Assembly: GCA_017964325.1 (NCBI GenBank)
Contig: JAGCSE010000290.1
Location: forward strand, 1 to 19,697
DNA length: 19,697 nucleotides
Source of the DNA: Victivallales bacterium
Lineage (GTDB): Bacteria; Verrucomicrobiota; Lentisphaeria; Oligosphaerales; Oligosphaeraceae
Reading direction: 5' to 3'
Positions 3,110 to 13,801 of this stretch are shown here, piece by piece (position 1 is the stretch's first letter; the number at the start of each line of letters is the position of its first letter). The position numbers and the translations under genes are program-made. Below the pieces are notes generated by a model, which saw nothing but the letters and a program-made list of their open reading frames with translations, searched no databases and was not told the origin of the DNA.

Positions 3110-4234
3110 GTGGGTAAAAAAGATAGTGCTACAAAAGTGATGATGAAGCGACGGGAGATGTTCGTGGATGCGTTCAACATACTGTTCCGACGCGCGGGCA
3201 TCACGGTTGACTTGGACAGTCTGGAAGAACGGGATCCGGCGTTGACAATACCTGTCAACATAGGAGACCAAGAAGGATGGGTGGATAGAGCCAATGATGT
3301 GGCGTTCGAGGCGGTAGTGCGTCGTATCGGAGAAACAGACTGCGTAATGCTGTGTGTGGAGAACCAGTCCGAGGTGGAGCATGATATGCCGTTGAGAAAT
3401 CTGATTACGTCAGGTTTTCAATGGTGGAAGTACAAAACTCAACTGTCGAAAACAAACAAGAAGACAAAGAAGCTGAAAAAAGGAGACTTTCTTTCAGGAT
3501 TTCTCAAGAATGACCGCCTTCCACCAGTTGTCATCATGGTGCTGTATCTGGGCTTGGAGCCATGGACAGGACCATCCCGCTTTCAAGAAATCGTTGATGC
3601 AAAGATTCCTGAAATGCGACATTTCATGGCGGACTGCCCGACAAATGTCGTATCGCTTGTCGATCTGACGGCAGAGGAACTGTCCCACATGAAATCGCCT
3701 CTTCGCATTCTGGCAAAGCTGCTGCAGACGCACGGCGACAAGGAGGCGATGCTACGTGTTGCACGGGAAGACCCTATGTTCCGCGACGCACCGGCCATCA
3801 TCTTCCGAGTTTTCAATGAACTGACCAATTCCAAATTAACCATACCAAGAAAGAAGGAGCATAACAACATGTGCAAGGCTTTGGACGATCTGAAAGAGGA
3901 AGGACGCCAACTGGGCCATAAGGAATCAGAAGCAAAAATCCGCAGAATAGAGGAAAAAGCAAAAGAGAAAATCCGCAAGGCAAATGACAAGGCCAAGGCC
4001 GAACGCGACAAGGCCAAGGCCGAACGCGACAAGGCCAAGGCCGAACGCGACAAGGCCAAGGCCGAACGCGACAAGGCCATTCATAGTCTGATCAATGTAT
4101 TTGAAGAACTTGGACAACCTTTCGAAAAAATACGCAAGTATCTTATGGAACGCTACAAACTCTCACAAAAACAGGTTGATGAGTATATCCAAAACCACAG
4201 GAGATTTGATTCCAATATCCTTTTCAACATCTGA
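3110..4234 (+). CDS. Rpn-family recombination-promoting nuclease / PD-(D/E)XK protein
   Basis: A 374-aa protein starting at GTG (MGKKDSATK, a start typical of this family; the ATGs at 3140 and 3143 have no ribosome site). Residues 13-240 form the Rpn/YhgA-like PD-(D/E)XK nuclease region, with D63 in RANDVAFEAV and the E-x-Q pair E84/Q86 in CVENQSEVEHDMPLR, followed by the WWKYKTQL helix. Residues 270-325 are a highly charged coiled coil containing four perfect DKAKAER heptads. A short helical tail follows (LGQPFEKIRKYLMERYKLS, then KQVDEYIQNH). Rpn proteins are DNA endonucleases that stimulate RecA-independent recombination; that activity is assumed here. The locus is AT-rich next to its neighbours, with a decayed duplicate just downstream, which suggests mobility or horizontal gain. 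Confidence 0.8.
   Translation: MGKKDSATKVMMKRREMFVDAFNILFRRAGITVDLDSLEERDPALTIPVNIGDQEGWVDRANDVAFEAVVRRIGETDCVMLCVENQSEVEHDMPLRNLITSGFQWWKYKTQLSKTNKKTKKLKKGDFLSGFLKNDRLPPVVIMVLYLGLEPWTGPSRFQEIVDAKIPEMRHFMADCPTNVVSLVDLTAEELSHMKSPLRILAKLLQTHGDKEAMLRVAREDPMFRDAPAIIFRVFNELTNSKLTIPRKKEHNNMCKALDDLKEEGRQLGHKESEAKIRRIEEKAKEKIRKANDKAKAERDKAKAERDKAKAERDKAKAERDKAIHSLINVFEELGQPFEKIRKYLMERYKLSQKQVDEYIQNHRRFDSNILFNI
3986..4078 (+). repeat. 21-bp coding tandem repeat, 4.4 copies
   Basis: The unit GACAAGGCCAAGGCCGAACGC occurs four times without a mismatch (3986-4069), followed by a 9-base partial copy. Each unit encodes DKAKAER, exactly one coiled-coil heptad, so copy-number changes keep both reading frame and heptad register. 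Confidence 0.96.
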
Positions 4235-5072: not shown

Positions 5073-5109
5073 AAAAAACATCCGCTTCGCTCTTCGCGAA
5101 ACGGATGTT
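5073..5109 (-). terminator. Terminator of pseudopilin gene 1
   Basis: Outer stem AACATCCG (5077-5084) with CGGATGTT (5102-5109) and inner stem 5086-5090 with 5096-5100. On the minus strand it ends in a run of U (A residues 5073-5078). It could also slow rightward transcription from the 125-aa gene. Confidence 0.85.
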
Positions 5110-5163
5110 CTTGTATTCGCTTTAGACTTTCAGCTTTAAGCTTTTAGCTCTGCCGAATTGCTG

Positions 5164-5919
5164 TTAGTTGCCGCTCACTTCGTTCTTCTGGTAACGAAGG
5201 TTGCCGCCGTAACCGACCTTCTTCACGGAACGCCAATTGCGAAGCTCTACGTGGCCATCGTAGAACCCGAGGTTGACAGCGCCATTGTGGACGGCGGAAT
5301 CGGAATATTCGCCTTCTGCAGGGGAGGAACCAACAGAGCAGGCCAAAACACGGTAGAAATAGCCCTGAGGGGTCAAGCCGCCACCAGTCTGCCAGCTCGT
5401 GCCAGTGTGGCCGATGAGGGGTTCGCGGCAGTCAGCCATTTCAAGGCTTTCGCTCGGGTATTTGATGATGCTCAGGACCCAGCTCTCGTTCTGGCCGAGT
5501 TCGCTGTAGCCATAGTTCGGCATGAGATTGCTGCCGGAACCGCCGTCAACAGTCCAGTTGTCAATGTACCAGCCGTAGCAGGCACCGGTCTTCTTCTGGT
5601 TGCCGGGGCACTGGTAAGGCTTGACATCGCCGACATACGTATAGGCAGCCTGATGCCATGGCGTTGCTTCATGGACATTGGCGGCAGTACCGCCACTGAT
5701 GCGGTGCAGCCCCCAGTTCCAATACGGGAGGTGGTCTTCGTTGTCCGTCTTGTACATCATCAGGCCGGTGGCGATTTGCTTGCAGTTGGATGTGCAGGCG
5801 ATGGTGCGGGCCTTTGCACGTGCTTTTGCAAGCGCGGGCAGCAGCATGGCCGCCAGAATCGCGATAATTGCGATGACGACCAAGAGTTCAATCAGCGTAA
5901 AACTCACAATGCGTTTCAT
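5164..5919 (-). CDS. Prepilin-type H-X9-DG protein, paralogue 1 (subfamily A)
   Basis: A 251-aa pseudopilin-like protein. The class III signal is [25 protein letters not shown]: a short basic leader, then Phe with Glu at +5 and a hydrophobic N-terminal helix, but Ser instead of Gly before the cleavage site. The amphipathic helix [13 protein letters not shown] is followed by a globular domain rich in Trp, Tyr and Gly, closed by [12 protein letters not shown] (H211 to D221-G222), the H-X9-DG motif of processing-associated pseudopilins. Cysteines are at 42, 46, 104, 114, 164 and 194. After prepilin-peptidase processing it would sit in the inner membrane or assemble in a type II secretion/type IV pilus-like fibre. 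The ribosome site is AAGGAAA. It has its own promoter and terminator. Confidence 0.9.
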
Positions 5920-5984
5920 TTTGATTTCCTTTCCTTGTTTTTGATTGGTTGAGTAAAAAAAATTATCACGTGAATCTATAAATC

Positions 5985-6013
5985 AATATAATCTTAACAT
6001 TGACTTATTTCAA
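5985..6013 (-). promoter_or_regulatory. Promoter of pseudopilin gene 1
   Basis: On the minus strand TTGAAA (6013-6008), a 17-base spacer and TATATT (5990-5985). The following bases and much of the spacer (CAATG-TAAGAT) are shared with the promoter of gene 2, so an untranslated leader of about 60 bases is expected. The rest of the 5920-6121 gap is AT-rich with nothing else recognised. Confidence 0.7.
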
Positions 6014-6121
6014 TTTAATTTGTCATTTTTTTTAATATTTTGTTAAAAATCTATTCCATGCATTACATCGCCACAGCCTTTCAAAAAATACAATAAATCT
6101 AACAGCCACAAATAACTACAC

Positions 6122-6159
6122 AAAAAAACATCCGCTTCGATTAGCGAGAAACGGATGTT
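6122..6159 (-). terminator. Terminator of pseudopilin gene 2
   Basis: Stem AACATCCG (6127-6134) with CGGATGTT (6152-6159) around a partly paired loop, with seven A residues at 6122-6128 giving the U-tract on the minus strand. The outer stem is identical to that of gene 1, as expected if the whole cassette was duplicated. Confidence 0.82.
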
Positions 6160-6212
6160 CTTACACTTTCTTTAATCTTTCAGATTCAAGATCTTACATC
6201 TGCCAAAGGCAA

Positions 6213-6968
6213 TTAGTTGCCACTCACTTCGTTCTTGTTGTAACGGATGTTGCCGCCGTAACCAACCTTCTTGACTGAACGCCAGTTGCGGAACTCGACG
6301 TGCCCATCATAGAAACCAAGGTTGACGGAGCCGTTGTGGACAGCTGAATCGGCATACTGTCCTTCAGCAGGGGATGAACCGACGGCGCAGGCAAGCACAC
6401 GGTAGAAATAGCCTTGTGGGGTCAGACCGCCGCCGCCAGCCCAGTCCGTACCGGTATGGCCAATCTGGCTCCAACGGCAATCGGCGAATTCAAGGCTTTC
6501 GCTCGGATATTTGATGATGCTCAGGACCCAGCTCTCGTTCTGGCCTGGTTCGCTGTAACCGTAGTTCGGATACAGATTGCTGCCGGAACCTTGGTCAACG
6601 GTCCAATTGTCGATATACCAACCATAACATGCGCCAGTCTGCTTCTGGTTGCCTGGGCACTGGTAGGGCTTCACATCGCCAATGTAATTATAGGAAGCCT
6701 GATGCCAAGGCGTCGCCTCGTGGATGTTTGCGGCTGATCCGCCGGTGATGCGATGCAGCCCCCAGTTCCAGTACGGGATGTGGTCATCATTGTCACTCTT
6801 GTACATCATCAGGGCTGTTGCAATCTGCTTGCAGTTGGACGTGCAGGCGATGGCACGGGCCTTCGCACGCGCCTTTGACAGCGCGGGAAGCAGCATGGCC
6901 GCCAGAATGGCGATAATCGCGATGACGACCAGCAATTCAATCAATGTAAAACATACAATTCGTTTCAT
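6213..6968 (-). CDS. Prepilin-type H-X9-DG protein, paralogue 2 (subfamily A)
   Basis: A 251-aa close paralogue of the gene at 5164. The frame stays open further upstream to 7085, but that would put the methylation motif 45 residues in and read through the promoter. The ATG at 6968 has a strong AAGGAG site 7 bases away and gives [11 protein letters not shown] like its sisters. It keeps all six subfamily A cysteines (42, 46, 104, 114, 164, 194) and ends with the H-X9-DG motif [12 protein letters not shown]. Cys sits just before the cleavage point where Gly is canonical. Differences from paralogue 1 cluster near residues 125-135, 165-180 and 203-207. It has its own promoter and terminator. Confidence 0.9.
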
Positions 6969-7035
6969 TTTGATCTCCTTTTTCTTTGTTTTTGATTGAT
7001 TGCAAAAAACACTGTCTAAAGAATCTAAAGTAAAC

Positions 7036-7064
7036 AATATAATCTTACCATTGATATATTTCAA
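7036..7064 (-). promoter_or_regulatory. Promoter of pseudopilin gene 2
   Basis: TTGAAA (7064-7059), a 17-base spacer and TATATT (7041-7036), 68 bases before the ATG at 6968. It nearly duplicates the gene 1 promoter, including the spacer core. Confidence 0.7.
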
Positions 7065-7105
7065 TGCGAATTTGATAAAATACATTAGAATCTATTAATT
7101 TTTTT

Positions 7106-7139
7106 AAAAAAAAAGCACCATGGGAAAATCCCATGGTGC
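7106..7139 (-). terminator. Terminator of pseudopilin gene 3
   Basis: A perfect 11-bp stem (7115-7125 with 7129-7139, GCACCATGGGA and its complement), AAA loop, and nine A residues (7106-7114) that give the U-tract on the minus strand. The stem sequence is unrelated to the other four. Confidence 0.92.
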
Positions 7140-7169
7140 GTTGAAAACAAAGCTATGTCAATTCAACTT

Positions 7170-7925
7170 TTAATTGCCGCTCACTTCGTTCTTGTTGTAG
7201 CGGAGGTTGCCGCCATAACCAACTTTCTTGACGGAACGCCAGTTGCGCAGTTCAACGTGGCCATCATAGAACTCGAGGTTGACGGAACCGTTGTGGACAG
7301 CGGAATCTTCATACTGACCTTCAGCCGGAGACGAACCAACGGCGCAAGCCAAAACACGGTAGAAATAACCCTGCGGGGTCAAACCGGCACCAGCAGCCCA
7401 GTCCGTTCCGGTGTGGCCGATGAGGGATTCGCGGCAGTCGGCCATTTCAAGGCTTTCGCTCGGATATTTGATGATGCTCATGACCCAGCTCTCATTCTGG
7501 CCGGATTCGCTGTAGCCGTAGTTCGGCTTGACATTGCTGCCGGAGCCGCTGTCAACAGTCCAGTTGTCGATGTACCAGCCGTAGCAGTCACCGGTCTTCT
7601 TCTGGTTGCCGGGGCACTGGTAAGGCTTGACATCGCCGACATACGTGTAGGAGGCCTGATGCCACGGTGTGGCTTCATGGACGTTGGCGGATGTACCGCC
7701 GCTGATGCGGTGCAGACCCCAGTTCCAGTACGGAATGTGGTCGTCGTTGTCATTCTTGTACATCATCAAAGCTGTTGACAACTGCTTGCAGTTGGATGTG
7801 CAGGCAATGGTGCGGGCCTTTGCACGTGCTTTCGCAAGTGCGGGCAACAGCATGGCCGCCAGAATCGCTATAATCGCGATGACGACCAAGAGCTCAATCA
7901 ACGTAAAAGTCATTACTCGTTTCAT
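7170..7925 (-). CDS. Prepilin-type H-X9-DG protein, paralogue 3 (subfamily A)
   Basis: A 251-aa member of the array. The leader is [11 protein letters not shown] with Thr at -1; the hydrophobic helix and LAKARAKAR helix match the sisters. Six cysteines at 42, 46, 104, 114 (here GDCYGW), 164 and 194. The C-terminal motif is [12 protein letters not shown]; the Glu in place of Gly is shared with subfamily B, although the rest of the protein is clearly subfamily A ([19 protein letters not shown] end). This mosaic feature hints at gene conversion between copies. The ribosome site is the weaker GGAACC, the same as in paralogue 4. Predicted location is the inner membrane/periplasm after prepilin processing. 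Confidence 0.9.
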
Positions 7926-7985
7926 GATGGTTCCTTTTTTTGGTGGGCTTGGCTTTTTTCTTTCTCCTTAATCAAATTCTATTAC

Positions 7986-8013
7986 AATATAATGGTGAAC
8001 AATCAATATTCAA
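7986..8013 (-). promoter_or_regulatory. Promoter of pseudopilin gene 3
   Basis: TTGAAT (8013-8008), a 16-base spacer and TATATT (7991-7986), about 61 bases before the ATG. Reading TTTGAA as the -35 box would give a 17-base spacer. Confidence 0.62.
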
Positions 8014-8038
8014 AACATAAAATTCATCTTTTTTTAAT

Positions 8039-8075
8039 AAAAAACGCTTCGATGTCAGAAGCATCGAAGCGTTTT
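8039..8075 (-). terminator. Terminator of pseudopilin gene 4
   Basis: A 14-bp stem AAAACGCTTCGATG (8041-8054) with its complement at 8062-8075, 7-base loop, and A residues 8039-8044 as the minus-strand U-tract. Its core CGCTTCGATG is shared with the gene 5 terminator. Confidence 0.9.
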
Positions 8076-8109
8076 GATAATTAACTATTTATATCTATTA
8101 CAATCAATA

Positions 8110-8856
8110 TTATTTGAAATCATCGAGAACATAGCGGAGGTTGCCGCCGTAGCCGTGCTTTTTGACGCCGCGCCAGTTGCGGAACTCGACATGACCATCA
8201 TAGAATTCCAAGTTGACGCCACCGTTGTGAGCGCAGGAATTTTCATACTGGCCTTCGGAGGAGGTGCCGCCACCGCTCGTGCAGATGCGGTAGAAATAGC
8301 CCTGTGGGGTCAAACCGGCGCCGGATTCCCAGTTCGTGTTGGTATTGCCAAGGAGACCACTGGAGCAGTCCGCCAATTCGAGGCCTTCGCTCGGATATTT
8401 GATCTGGCTCAAGACCCAGCTCGCGTTCTGACCGTATTCACTGTAGCCGTAGTTCGGGCAGATATTGCTACCGGAACCCTTGTTGGCGTTCCAGTTGTCG
8501 ATGTACCAACCATAGACGGCGCCGGTCTTCTTCGTGTTACCTGGGCACTGGAAGGGCTTGACATCGCCAATGTAGTCGTATGCGGCCTGCTGCCACGGCT
8601 TTGCTTCGTTCAAATCAGCACGGGTACCACCAGAAATACGATGGTAGCCCCAGGAGAAATACGGCAGATGATCGTCATTGTCGCTCTTGTACATCAAGAG
8701 GGCTGTGGCCAACTGCTTGACATTGGACGTGCAGGAAATTTGGCGCGCTTTCGCACGAGCCTTCGCCAAGGCGGGCAGCAACATGGCTGCCAAAATCGCA
8801 ATAATCGCAATGACGACCAAAAGTTCTATCAACGTGAAAGTCAGTACTCTTTTCAT
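8110..8856 (-). CDS. Prepilin-type H-X9-DG protein, paralogue 4 (subfamily B)
   Basis: A 248-aa pseudopilin-like protein with [11 protein letters not shown] (Thr at -1), the same N-terminal helix, and [12 protein letters not shown] (H210 to D220-G221) near the C-terminus. It belongs with paralogue 5 by FSWG, DNWNAN, YRICTS and the shorter acidic/lysine end (DDFK). The core cysteines 42, 104, 164 and 192 are kept; the subfamily A cysteines 46 and 114 are both Val. Two cysteines are unique to this copy, C133 (SNICPNYGY) and C208 (ENSCAHNGG), which could form an extra disulfide. Own promoter and terminator. Confidence 0.9.
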
Positions 8857-8922
8857 GATGGTTCCTTTTGTTTTATGAGCTGCAATTACATTTTAACAAA
8901 AACTTAATAATTTATTTTTATC

Positions 8923-8950
8923 AATATAATTTCATTATTTCAATATTCAA
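8923..8950 (-). promoter_or_regulatory. Promoter of pseudopilin gene 4
   Basis: TTGAAT (8950-8945), a 16-base spacer and TATATT (8928-8923), 67 bases before the ATG. The architecture is the same as for gene 3. Confidence 0.62.
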
Positions 8951-8974
8951 ATATAAATTCTTCAATATTTTAAC

Positions 8975-9015
8975 AAAAAAAAACGCGCTTCGATGAAAAA
9001 ACATCGAAGCGCGTT
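8975..9015 (-). terminator. Terminator of pseudopilin gene 5
   Basis: A perfect 14-bp stem AACGCGCTTCGATG (8982-8995) with 9002-9015, an A6 loop, and nine A residues (8975-8983) that give the U-tract on the minus strand. Confidence 0.93.
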
Positions 9016-9052
9016 GAAAATCAAGAATTTATTGAATCAAACTACCATATCA

Positions 9053-9802
9053 TTATTTGACATCGGACGTGATGTAGCGGAGATTGCCGCCCATGGCATG
9101 CTTCCTAACGCCGCGCCAGTTGCGGAACTCGACATGGCCGTCGAAGAATTCGAGGTTGACACCGCCGTTGTGTGGGACCGAGTTCTCATACTGGCCTTCG
9201 GAGGAGGAACCGCCGCTCAAGCTGGTGCAGATGCGGTAGAAATAGCCCTGGGGGGTTAGGCCGGCGCCAGCTTCCCAGTTGGTATTGCCGTTGCCGATAA
9301 GGCCGCTGGAGCAGTCCGCCAGTTCGAGGCTCTCACTCGGATACTTGATCTGGGTCATGATCCAGCATTCGTTCATGGCGTATTCGCTGTAGCCGTAGTT
9401 CGGATAAACGTTGCTGCCAGAACCCGTGTTGGCATTCCAGTTGTCGATGTAGTAGCCATAGACAGAGCCAGTTTTCTTGAGGTTGCCGGGGCACTGGAAC
9501 GGCTTGATGTCGCCAACATAGTCATAAGCGGCCTGATGCCATGGTTTTGCTGCATTAGCAGCTGCATTCGTGCCGTCTGGAATACGGTTGGCGCCCCATG
9601 AGAAATACGGGACATGGTCGTCATTGTCGCCTTTGTACATCATCAGGGCGGTGGCGAACTGCTTGACATTGGACGTGCAGGAGATGGCGCGGGCTTTCGC
9701 ACGGGCCTTCGCCAAAGCAGGCAGCAACATGGCCGCCAAAATCGCGATGATGGCGATGACGACCAGCAATTCAATCAGCGTGAAGGTCAAAACACGTTTC
9801 AT
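9053..9802 (-). CDS. Prepilin-type H-X9-DG protein, paralogue 5 (subfamily B)
   Basis: A 249-aa protein and the most upstream member of the array. [25 protein letters not shown] starts the N-terminal helix; [12 protein letters not shown] (H211 to D221-G222) is the C-terminal motif. Core cysteines 42, 104, 164 and 192 are present, 46 and 114 are Val, and a lone extra C146 (NECWIM) gives an odd total of five. It is the most divergent copy in the 70-85 region ([19 protein letters not shown]). It has the strongest ribosome site after paralogue 2 (AAGGAG) and is the only array member without the TTGAA(A/T)-TATATT promoter. Predicted inner-membrane/periplasmic pseudopilin. Confidence 0.9.
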
Positions 9803-9834
9803 TTTTTACTCCTTTTTTGTTTTGGGTTGTTTGT

Positions 9835-9862
9835 TTTACAACACTTTTTTCGTTGTTGTCAA
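9835..9862 (-). promoter_or_regulatory. Possible promoter of pseudopilin gene 5
   Basis: TTGACA (9862-9857), a 16-base spacer and TGTAAA (9840-9835), 32 bases before the ATG. The -35 box is consensus but the -10 box is poor, and the layout differs from the other four. Confidence 0.32.
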
Positions 9863-10309
9863 TCCATTAATCCATTGAAAAACATATTAATTTTTTATTA
9901 AATTAATGATGGAATGAGAAAATGCAACCTTATTCTGCTTTTTATAACGAGAATTTACAAAAAAAATTATTTTATTTTTCAACTACATAAATACATATCG
10001 TTTTATATCTATTCATTTTTATGTATCACAATTTATCCCATCTCGCTCCTCTTTGCCAAAATAAAACACGTCTCGCGTCAATCTTGGACGTGTGCGAAAA
10101 GCCTTCCAAATGCCAAGCCGCCGGAGGCCAGCCGTTTCACGGAGCTAAAAGCTTGAAGCATAAAGTAAATGTAGATATTTCAGAAACAAGGCCGACGGCG
10201 GCGAGGCATTCTGTGAAAGAATCTGTTTAATCTGTGGTGCCAATATATTCTAGCTACAGTTTGACCGCTAAAATTTTTTCGTGGTTCAAAATCAATGGCA
10301 CTGACACCA
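9863..10309. other. Long intergenic region with a GC-richer island
   Basis: 9863-10060 is very AT-rich with nothing recognised. About 10070-10225 is distinctly more GC-rich; on the plus strand one frame opens at 10021 and reads CEKPSKCQAAGGQPFHGAKS, later ETRPTAARHSVKESV, stop at 10228. It has no ribosome site and no recognised domain, so it is not called as a gene; it may be a gene remnant or a copy of a dispersed repeat. 10230-10309, after the M28 stop, holds no convincing terminator, only a 5-bp AATGG/CCATT stem. Confidence 0.5.
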
Positions 10310-11666: not shown

Positions 11667-12758
11667 CTACATCAGCAAAGTTGCATCCTGCCGCGCCTTG
11701 GAAACTTTCTCAAAAACGTTTTTGCAGTAATTACACGTGTCGCAATGGTGGCCGCAATGAGTCGTATGCTCGAACCAATCTTCTGGGAAGCGTGAATTCA
11801 TGATGAGCGGCATACCATCCACATTGGCATGGCCTGGCTCCAAAATGTCGAGAAGATTGCCGTTCCATTTTTCTTCACTATACGCTAGAAGCGTGTATTC
11901 AGGCTCGCTGCTTTCGCGCGTCGCCAGCTTGATCGTGTCAAATAAATCTGCATAATGATGGATGTCCTCAGGACGTATCCATGTGTTGCGCAAGACCCAA
12001 TGGCGGATGGATTCGTCCGTCAGCATACGGAAGCATGGCGCAAGCGTCCCCTTGTAGGCTGACTCCTGTGAGACGATTTCGTCGATGTGTGCCACCACGT
12101 TCTCATGGTAGTGATGGTGCGGACATTGGTAAATGCAACCACTGTTCGCCAACATATGCAGCGACTTGCCATGCTCATCGCACCATGTCCGCACTGATCG
12201 AATGTGCTCCAAATCGCGGTTGTAGTCGCGGTTCAAATAAAAGCCATCGAAATATTTCGACAACAGCTCCATCTGGCGAATGGTTCCAATGTGCATGTTA
12301 ATGGAGGAACGCACCTTAACATCTGGAAAAGAAATCTTGATCGCCTCTGCGAACGGCAGTGAAATCACCGTCGCGGCACGTAGATGGATGTGCTTTCCAG
12401 CATCTTCGATGCTTTTCCGCACGTGTTCCGCCAGTTCTTTCGCACCATACTCGCCGCCGTAGCAGGAGGAATTGAACAGCACGACACCCGGCAACCCCAT
12501 CTTATCCAATCGGTCCAAATCTGCGAACAGCCGTTCGCGCGCCTCATCCACCGCCATCCCGCCGCGCGAACCGACGGGCACTCGACCGCTTGCATCGCCA
12601 GGCATCGCGAAAAACACTTCAGAAATGCTTTTGCGGTACTGCCCAATCAAATCAACCATGTCATGACGGTTCATTTCGCCTGGCAACTGATACCCGACCG
12701 CGAACTGCAATCGTTTTCCCAACACTTTGTCTTTCAATTGCTTCCAAAATGATACCAT
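11667..12758 (-). CDS. U32-like TIM-barrel Fe-S protein, second paralogue
   Basis: A 363-aa protein resembling peptidase U32-family proteins: EVFFAMPGDASG near the N-terminus, SSCYGG, RSSINMHIG, YFDGFYLNRDYNRDLEHI, then NSGCIYQCPHHHYHENVVAH, WIRPEDI and GNLLDILEPGHA. The C-terminus has C335-X3-C339-X2-C342-X2-C345 (CGHHCDTCNYC). Cysteines 99, 193, 208, 212, 242 and the terminal four are all shared with the gene upstream, consistent with one or two metal clusters. Characterised U32 proteins (UbiU, UbiV, RlhA, TrhP) bind a 4Fe-4S cluster and act in oxygen-independent hydroxylation, so peptidase activity should not be assumed. I use the ATG at 12758: a GGAGGTG ends 6 bases before it, and the alternative GTG at 12767 lies inside that ribosome site. 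Confidence 0.68.
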   Translation of the reverse strand: MVSFWKQLKDKVLGKRLQFAVGYQLPGEMNRHDMVDLIGQYRKSISEVFFAMPGDASGRVPVGSRGGMAVDEARERLFADLDRLDKMGLPGVVLFNSSCYGGEYGAKELAEHVRKSIEDAGKHIHLRAATVISLPFAEAIKISFPDVKVRSSINMHIGTIRQMELLSKYFDGFYLNRDYNRDLEHIRSVRTWCDEHGKSLHMLANSGCIYQCPHHHYHENVVAHIDEIVSQESAYKGTLAPCFRMLTDESIRHWVLRNTWIRPEDIHHYADLFDTIKLATRESSEPEYTLLAYSEEKWNGNLLDILEPGHANVDGMPLIMNSRFPEDWFEHTTHCGHHCDTCNYCKNVFEKVSKARQDATLLM

Positions 12759-12763
12759 GATAT

Positions 12764-13801
12764 TCACCTCCCCTGCTCAGCAGCCGTTGCAGTCATTTTT
12801 CCAAAAACATCACGGCAATAGCCGCATCCGTCGCAGGCATGGCCGCATGTGGAGGTTTTCTCAAACCAATCGTCTGGAAACGCATTGTTGCGCAACGGCG
12901 GCATCCCCGCCAGCCCAGCATGGCACGGCTCTAAAAGTTCCAGCAAATCGCCGTCCCAATGATCATTGATATAGGCATCCAACACCTTCCGTGCCTGCGG
13001 TATGTCGTTGGATAGCAACGCAATCGTATCAAAATATTCTTCGACCTTCGCAATGTCTTCCGGTCGAATCCAACCTCCCTGTAATATTTGCACAGGGTTC
13101 TCGGCTTCAGACAGCGCTTCGCGGCACTGCATCTCCCGCTCCTTCCATGGAGTCTTCTTTGCCGCCAATTCCACTGCATGGCCCATCACGTTTAAATGCT
13201 CCAGCATAAACGGACATTCGTATAGGCAACCGTTGTTGGGAACTAGATGAAGCGTCTTCTTGTGTTCGTCACACCATTTGCGAACTTTCGTGATATGGGA
13301 CACATCCCTCGTCATGTCACGTTTCAGATAAAATCCGTCATAGTAACGTCCTGCATATTCCAATTGGTTCATGGAGCCAACCTGTTCGTTCACGGAGGCC
13401 CGTATCTCCAGTTCAGGAAACACGCCTTTCAAAAACTCCGCCATAGGCGGCGTCATCGTCACGACAGCCTTCAGGCGGATGTGCCGCTTCACTTCCTGCA
13501 CACTCCGCTTGATATGCTCGAAAAACGGTTTTGACACCATGCCGCCGCCATAGCACGACGCATCGAAAAGCAATACGCCAACAATTCCCATGTTGCGCAA
13601 TCGCTCCAGGTCGCGGAAAAACCGTGCGGATTTCTCCACCGATGGATGATCTGACTGGCGCACTCCTGCGGCGTCCCCTGGTATCGTGAAGAACACTTCC
13701 GCGACACTTTCCCTATACGCCGCCAAAACACTCGACCATGAACAGTCTATTTTATCGACTATGCCTGCATGATAACCTATCGCCAGTTTGCGACCTGTCA
13801 T
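12764..13801 (-). CDS. U32-like TIM-barrel Fe-S protein, first paralogue
   Basis: A 345-aa paralogue of the next gene. Shared blocks: EVFFTIPGDAAG (35-46), ASCYGGG, RASVNEQVG, YYDGFYLKRDMTRDVSHI, RKWCDEH, NNGCLYECPFMLEHLNV (189-205), WIRPEDI, GDLLELLEPCHA and the C-terminal C319-X3-C323-X2-C326-X2-C329 (CGHACDGCGYC). The RD-x-x-RD pair takes the place of the RELT-type motif of U32 proteins. Cysteines 83, 177, 192, 196 and 226 are conserved in both paralogues. It has no signal peptide. Its stop codon lies inside the ribosome site of the second paralogue, so the two are translationally coupled and probably made in equal amounts, which fits a heterodimer. It follows the ArsR gene by 21 bases. 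The reaction is unknown. Confidence 0.68.
   Translation of the reverse strand: MTGRKLAIGYHAGIVDKIDCSWSSVLAAYRESVAEVFFTIPGDAAGVRQSDHPSVEKSARFFRDLERLRNMGIVGVLLFDASCYGGGMVSKPFFEHIKRSVQEVKRHIRLKAVVTMTPPMAEFLKGVFPELEIRASVNEQVGSMNQLEYAGRYYDGFYLKRDMTRDVSHITKVRKWCDEHKKTLHLVPNNGCLYECPFMLEHLNVMGHAVELAAKKTPWKEREMQCREALSEAENPVQILQGGWIRPEDIAKVEEYFDTIALLSNDIPQARKVLDAYINDHWDGDLLELLEPCHAGLAGMPPLRNNAFPDDWFEKTSTCGHACDGCGYCRDVFGKMTATAAEQGR
12765..12773 (-). promoter_or_regulatory. Ribosome site overlapping the first U32-like stop codon
   Basis: On the minus strand GGGGAGGTG precedes AATATC and then ATG (12758). The TGA stop of the upstream gene (12766-12764) overlaps its end. This fixes the downstream start and implies translational coupling. 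Confidence 0.75.

Follow-up and report, generated by a model that had tools for sequence, protein, structure and literature searches.

A tandem array of pilin-like genes in a Victivallales bacterium, with an upstream box and a candidate response regulator that may read it

The stretch of DNA analysed here (the window) comprises 19,697 nucleotides of contig JAGCSE010000290.1 from a Victivallales bacterium (assembly GCA_017964325.1), and it holds a tandem head-to-tail array of five open reading frames (ORFs) on the minus strand (5164-9802), which encode pilin-like proteins of 248-251 amino acids and follow one another in the transcription order g5 to g1. The cluster is typical of a large, known and poorly understood family, and what it adds beyond that family is a shared upstream box, TTAA-N7-TTAA, with a candidate regulator, together with the missing glycine before the cleavage site of the pilin leader. 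The genes are as follows.

5164..5919, minus strand: g1, pilin-like H-X9-DG protein, 251 amino acids, subfamily A
6213..6968, minus strand: g2, pilin-like, 251 amino acids, subfamily A
7170..7925, minus strand: g3, pilin-like, 251 amino acids, subfamily A, used for the structure model
8110..8856, minus strand: g4, pilin-like, 248 amino acids, subfamily B
9053..9802, minus strand: g5, pilin-like, 249 amino acids, subfamily B, transcribed first

A preliminary description of this DNA had recognised five H-X9-DG paralogues lying head to tail in two subfamilies, A (genes 1-3) and B (genes 4-5), and the ORFs and their amino acid identities confirm this arrangement (88-89% within A, 82% within B, 66-73% between A and B). 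The motif itself is present in all five proteins, as are one common stretch near the N-terminus and a hydrophobic N-terminal helix with Phe at +1 (F+1) and Glu at +5 (E+5). The term "near-duplicates" used in that description was an overstatement, given that synonymous divergence (dS) between the window paralogues runs from 0.52 to 1.7, with a ratio of nonsynonymous to synonymous divergence (dN/dS) of about 0.08-0.23. All five proteins pass the gathering cut-off of PF07596 (DUF1559, SBP_bac_10; 30.6-40.8 bits against 23.3), the match being confined to roughly the first 40-60 of the profile's 268 positions, and all five pass TIGR02532; the N_methyl model PF07963 takes g1 alone above its cut-off, the other four scoring 20.9-21.0 against 21.2. 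None of the five passes the GspG equivalog TIGR01710 (40.4-43.7 bits against 88.85). Compared with GspG and PilA, the window proteins share the N-terminal helix and perhaps a pilin-like fold, but they fall below the GspG cut-off, carry a large extra head and lie outside any machine operon. The predicted structure of g3 was based on 97 sequences, and an earlier version from 25 sequences was poor (predicted local distance difference test 54.7) and was set aside.

Apparent signals for the separate expression of each gene surround the five ORFs. A hairpin with a T run lies within 150 nucleotides (nt) downstream of every window gene, as compared to 5.5% of 400 random 150-nt segments, and a promoter-like site precedes each one.

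5074..5112, minus strand: g1 terminator (terminator scan)
6128..6159, minus strand: g2 terminator (scan core 6132-6147, ends read from the sequence)
7115..7139, minus strand: g3 terminator (scan and downstream count)
8042..8074, minus strand: g4 terminator (scan gave 8043-8065, ends read from the sequence)
8982..9015, minus strand: g5 terminator (scan and downstream count)
5985..6013, minus strand: g1 promoter-like site, TTGAAA-17-TATATT (promoter scan)
7036..7064, minus strand: g2 promoter-like site, TTGAAA-17-TATATT (promoter scan)
7986..8013, minus strand: g3 promoter-like site, TTGAAT-16-TATATT (promoter scan)
8923..8950, minus strand: g4 promoter-like site, TTGAAT-16-TATATT (promoter scan)
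9834..9862, minus strand: g5 promoter-like site, TTGACA-17-GTAAAA with a weak -10 (found by eye, missed by the scan)

These rows agree with the earlier claim that every gene has its own terminator and promoter, four of the promoters being of one type (TTGAA(A/T)-16/17-TATATT at g1-g4). Counts over the whole region are weak when taken alone, with 14 promoter-like sites against 8.9 (standard deviation 3.3) in shuffles and 11 terminator-like sites against 7.2 (standard deviation 3.1). The same description called each gene a complete transcription unit; as far as sequence signals go the units do look separate, and on that basis each window pilin gene is probably its own transcription unit. Genome-wide figures, here and below, derive from relatives (G001-G005 and further genomes), all draft or of uncertain completeness, and not from the window's own genome. 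From 125 pilin-like ORFs, 114 entered the downstream (terminator) count and 99 the upstream count. Among 52 same-strand neighbouring pilin pairs from the relatives' loci and the window, 36 are separated by gaps of at least 120 nt and 16 by shorter ones, and since a terminator was found in 25 of the 36 longer gaps and in none of the 16 shorter gaps, the arrangement of the window is an ordinary one. Single-gene cassettes and short operons thus appear to coexist in the relatives, the window being of the cassette kind. Another tandem of five H-X9-DG pilin genes lies in G005 (L104 4554-9806), with gaps of 395-489 nt and terminators in three of four. The preliminary description would have been contradicted by a genome in which no other such clusters exist and the copies are always co-expressed, and further tandem clusters do occur in the relatives.

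The box TTAA-N7-TTAA occurs three times in the window, each time upstream of a pilin gene, where 0.19 occurrences would be expected.

6032..6046, no strand: g1 upstream box, 18 nt before the g1 -35
8893..8907, no strand: box upstream of g4, downstream of the g4 -10
9887..9901, no strand: g5 upstream box, about 24 nt before the TTGACA of that gene (promoter found by eye)

In a scan for dyads in 150-nt upstream regions this pattern came far ahead of all others, being present upstream of 40 of 99 pilin genes and 6 of 288 control genes, the latter called by greedy ORF choice. The spacing of seven alone is enriched, any other spacing between 0 and 30 reaching at most nine, and Markov shuffles of the pilin upstream regions gave a mean of 3.2 boxes and a maximum of 10. 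Another palindrome found at promoters, ATTGA-N6-TCAAT (9 of 99 pilin genes against 2 of 288 controls), was rejected as the main motif because it is weaker. The box is distributed as 3/5 in the window, 17/38 in G001, 2/3 in G002, 18/33 in G003 and 0/20 in G005, so that within the lineage (window and G001-G003) it precedes 40 of the 79 pilin genes examined, compared with 5 of 246 controls; these five control boxes are pilin-gene sites viewed from the divergent neighbour, and none is left in 241 control promoters once they are removed. The contrast holds at a guanine-plus-cytosine (GC) content up to 0.34 (34 of 63 pilin upstream regions against 2 of 61 controls). Seven other genomes of the order showed no box in 73 pilin upstream regions, which are richer in GC (0.41-0.57). 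Counted over whole genomes the box occurs 57 times in G001, 73 in G003 and 22 in G005, and the reversed pattern is commoner (103, 107 and 98, respectively). In a hand tally of 50 listed G003 boxes, 16 precede listed pilin genes and another precedes a pilin fragment. The remaining 33 include four within predicted genes, several at contig ends and one at a distance of 191 nt upstream of an additional pilin-like N-terminus (L218). Box-bearing pilin genes span 10 of the 20 protein clusters formed at 45% identity (clusters exclusive to G005 omitted), which argues that the box is not one inherited promoter.

The position of the box relative to the promoter varies in a way that may bear on its function. 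The called -35 lies downstream of 11 of the 42 boxes, at a distance of 7-9 nt in ten cases; another 18 boxes cover the spacer or the -10, 7 are found further downstream and 2 at the -35, and 4 had no promoter call. The promoters were called by best score and single cases may be wrong, as with g5, for which the automatic call chose another site and placed the box over the -10. The same spelling is known from Caulobacter, where TTAA-N7-TTAA is the consensus of the response regulator CtrA, which drives pilA from a site at the -35, represses through other sites (PMC11264516), and acts on hemE as a repressor via sites at the -35 and -10 (PMC11264516). As in the CtrA-pilA case of Caulobacter crescentus, a CtrA-spelled box stands at pilin genes here, and in both cases one response regulator acts, or here would act, through some sites that activate and others that repress. 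The differences are that the present lineage belongs to another phylum, that the candidate regulator scores far below the CtrA cut-off, and that 17 and 18 boxed pilin genes are seen in two draft genomes as compared to the single pilA of Caulobacter.

The candidate regulator belongs to the OmpR family, of which G001-G005 carry 2, 1, 1, 1 and 3 genes, respectively. One such regulator, which in G001 lies at L191 5841-6545, is common to G001, G002 and G003 with 91-92% identity, and the nearer of the two compared G005 genes (out of three) is 45-46% identical to it; the comparison took five of the eight OmpR-family genes (L116-L120) and omitted L113 (G005), L114 (G001) and L115 (G004). In G001 and G002 a box lies between this shared regulator and a divergent gene for a YejM/PbgA-like sulfatase-family membrane protein; it ends 103-105 nt (far edge) ahead of the regulator ATG and 107-112 nt ahead of the divergent gene. 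G003 retains the box upstream of the YejM/PbgA-like gene, and there the regulator lies on another contig whose start cuts its own upstream region.

L191, 6546-6747: box-bearing regulator/YejM-like intergenic region
L192, 6542-6736: box-bearing regulator/YejM-like intergenic region
L207, 1-211: box-bearing regulator/YejM-like intergenic region

The best match of the shared regulator is TIGR01387, with 261.8 bits (cut-off 279.2). On NF045991, the sole model for CtrA in the listed 25 of its 94 NCBIfam matches, it reaches 165.8 bits against 350, which gives no support for CtrA orthology. By association, we infer that this OmpR-family regulator reads the pilin-gene boxes.

Taken together, these observations lead to the reading that the genes are alternative pilin subunits, kept as single-gene cassettes under one response-regulator switch, which we hold with middling confidence, the regulator and the function being the conjectural parts. 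Each gene would be transcribed as a single unit, from a sigma70-type promoter to its own terminator, and its product, a hydrophobic N-terminal helix (F+1, E+5, P22) with a large head, would be inserted via the general export pathway and passed on to a pilus or secretion machine encoded elsewhere, the families of such a machine being present in the relatives. Boxes 7-9 nt upstream of the -35 would occupy an activator position and those over the -10 or further downstream repressor positions, so that one OmpR-family response regulator, binding them, could raise some subunits and lower others. Such a switch may alter the composition of the fibre or the surface on an envelope or surface signal, with assembly, signal and ligand all presumed. 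A finding that counts against a fixed role of the box comes from 21 reciprocal-best pilin pairs, in which the box is present in both members of 8, in one member of 8 and in neither member of 5. The shared box and one candidate regulator make a huge and unexplained family a testable regulon, and a search of the open-access literature found neither the link between box and regulator nor the missing glycine in print.

The size of this family in the relatives invites a simpler explanation. The protein search returned 26 relatives at E <= 0.001 and the genome scan 12 loci, of which the closest seven belong to RUG12186, to two Victivallales metagenome-assembled genomes (MAGs) from the reticulum and omasum of water buffalo, to a Lentisphaeria MAG (two loci) and to a MAG labelled Verrucomicrobia (two loci). 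The order of M28 peptidase, pilin cluster, XylB and RNase Z is common to the window and G001, G002 and G003, with an Rpn-like gene between pilin cluster and XylB in two of the three relatives, and in G001 and G002 the two flanks of the cluster lie on separate contigs. At this site the window has five pilin copies, G003 two (complete, on one contig), G002 three (on two contigs with an exact overlap of 141 bases) and G001 at least three (at two facing contig ends without overlap). The contig ends of L001, L002, L008 and L009 mark places where assemblies break within tandem pilin genes, and copy numbers of such clusters in MAGs are therefore lower bounds. An N-terminal pilin model matches 52, 38, 48, 48 and 58 times in the five relatives and finds matches in all 47 genomes of the order, from 4 to at least 150 each. 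The suggestion that the paralogues form a repertoire gains support from the 38-58 matches per relative, and the separate units and the two subfamilies of the preliminary description are supported as well. The varying copy number at the same site (at least three in both G001 and G002) and the large size of such families across the order and other genomes of the phylum would also fit plain lineage-specific amplification without any repertoire logic, in which five redundant pilin genes inherited their promoters and the box belongs to a common promoter type. We consider this improbable, for the paralogues are old and under purifying selection as judged by their dN/dS, the box is absent from the 241 control promoters of the same genomes, and it is spread over half of the pilin clusters.

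The age of the paralogues also bears on the proposal that the array supplies donors for gene conversion. In the tree, the A copies cluster together across four genomes (98/99) and are not grouped per genome, and the B copies of the same four genomes branch outside it without support, the bootstrap having not settled (6 of 32 inner branches starred). Same-type window paralogues have a dS of 0.52-1.05, higher than that of two of the three flanking orthologues compared with G001 (RNase Z 0.37, XylB 0.39, M28 0.97). A permutation test over the 10 paralogue pairs found identical silent-site runs no longer than chance (all p > 0.25); with all polymorphic sites the lowest values were 0.03 and 0.049, both within A and uncorrected, and a codon-match comparison by segment gave no convincing signal of gene conversion. 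The idea of silent donors diversifying one expressed pilin, which the tandem order and the near-identical protein N-termini may bring to mind, is very hard to sustain beside the lack of excess identical silent runs, the promoter-like site and start of every copy and the high dS, and the earlier suggestion of conversion donors is not supported by the silent-run test, the dS or the grouping of A across genomes. Promoter shuffling between g3 and g4 was considered on account of a similar 5' leader and was not demonstrated. Two G001 pilin genes (L008 9869 and L001 678) share the leader MKKVLQ, where the six others compared begin with MKR, possibly by local exchange.

The second unusual feature is the residue before the cleavage site (-1), which in the window pilins is T, T, T, S and C, so that one of five falls in the set G, A or S and none is G or A. 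According to the literature, the residue at which prepilin peptidase cuts is Gly or Ala, or G, A or S in one curated set, and E+5 is linked to pilin assembly (PMC3244431). In the window lineage Gly stands at -1 in 2 of 97 sequences and G, A or S in 13 of 97; Gly is found in 0 of 25 sequences of G005, 2 of 74 from other genomes of the order and 4 of 31 from twelve other expanded genomes of the phylum, these counts using a model that starts at F and the twelve genomes having been picked for many candidates. Loci outside the order picked by a Gly-containing model carry Gly at -1 in 32 of 34 cases (30 loci), a selection biased to Gly, and canonical pilins therefore do exist in the phylum. F+1 and E+5 stand in 96 of the 97 lineage sequences and in all or all but one of every set, and the one lineage gene and one order gene without them probably reflect a shifted alignment. 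The Gly-bearing copies in G001 and G003 begin MRRVSGFTLVELLVV, and we take them to be GspH-like.

The scarcity of Gly raises the question of whether the proteins are processed at all. They could be uncleaved binding proteins anchored in the inner membrane, with the H-X9-DG head binding periplasmic solutes instead of building fibres, as the Pfam short name SBP_bac_10 and a mostly unmatched head might suggest (17 of 19 matches in a PDB sequence search end at or before residue 62). We think this unlikely, though worth taking seriously, considering that F+1 and E+5 are so constant, that P22 is invariant in the 97-sequence homologue alignment, that all six VIA entries listed are type IV pilins, and that a prepilin peptidase of full length, complete with CxxC pairs and GxGD, is encoded in four relatives (G001, G003, G004 and G005); in G002 the match is partial and lies close to the start of a contig. 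Like E+5, P22 is a residue linked to pilin assembly. An extension of the switch scheme would be that a non-CtrA regulator with a CtrA-like box governs the pilin repertoire and that the peptidase has been freed from the need for Gly, loosening -1 across the expanded families of the phylum, which we offer only tentatively. Either the prepilin processing rule is in question or the proteins are unprocessed, and both answers would be informative.

No ATPase, platform, secretin or prepilin peptidase was recognised in the window; the preliminary description had remarked on the lack of the ATPase and the membrane platform in contrasting the array with the operons of secretion machines. The contrast is less odd than it had seemed, for matches to PF00437 (ATPase), PF00482 (platform), PF00263 (secretin) and PF01478 (peptidase) occur elsewhere in the genomes of all five relatives. 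Expanded families of this kind are known from Planctomycetes, with at least 41 N_methyl and SBP_bac_10 genes per Planctomycetales genome and 91 two-domain proteins in T. immobilis, where the genes are described as evenly spread (PMC8567305), and with 74 DUF1559 genes in R. baltica (PMC2754498). The present family shares the Pfam pair (N_methyl with PF07596) and tens of copies per genome with them, but differs in its tandem single-gene cassettes, as opposed to copies spread evenly round the T. immobilis genome, in the lack of Gly at -1 and in the lineage-specific box. Pili-like fibres of Planctopirus and Gemmata bind dextran (PMC5394234) and may be an analogue, as fibres with affinity for a polysaccharide. 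Genomes of the superphylum hold tens to well over a hundred such pilin-like proteins each, and none with a demonstrated role was found in the open-access literature.

Several observations concern the neighbourhood of the pilin genes. The nearest neighbours of pilin genes in G001 and G003 (82 of 96 scanned) fall into 88 Pfam families, and none of the 25 listed occurs in more than four proteins; a polysaccharide-utilisation context was considered and dropped, since the neighbour families give no hint of it, nor of the niche-specific use suggested earlier, no contrast set having been scanned and hence no enrichment test made. An Rpn/YhgA-like gene lies beside the cluster (window 3110-4234), with relatives in G001 and G002 and none in the complete G003 cluster; at 1e-5 no Pfam family matches the window copy, and the G001 copy matches PF04754 weakly. 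Two adjoining ORFs beside the M28 gene (window 11667-13801), presumably U32-peptidase-like, have no Pfam match at 1e-5; they are kept in G001 and G003 and were not seen in the G002 locus. Finally, a pilin-like frame 257 codons long and containing a single in-frame TGA occurs at both G004:C23:1415-1549 and G005:C140:83757-83891 (L105 8149-8874), perhaps one and the same gene, broken or recoded in both species.

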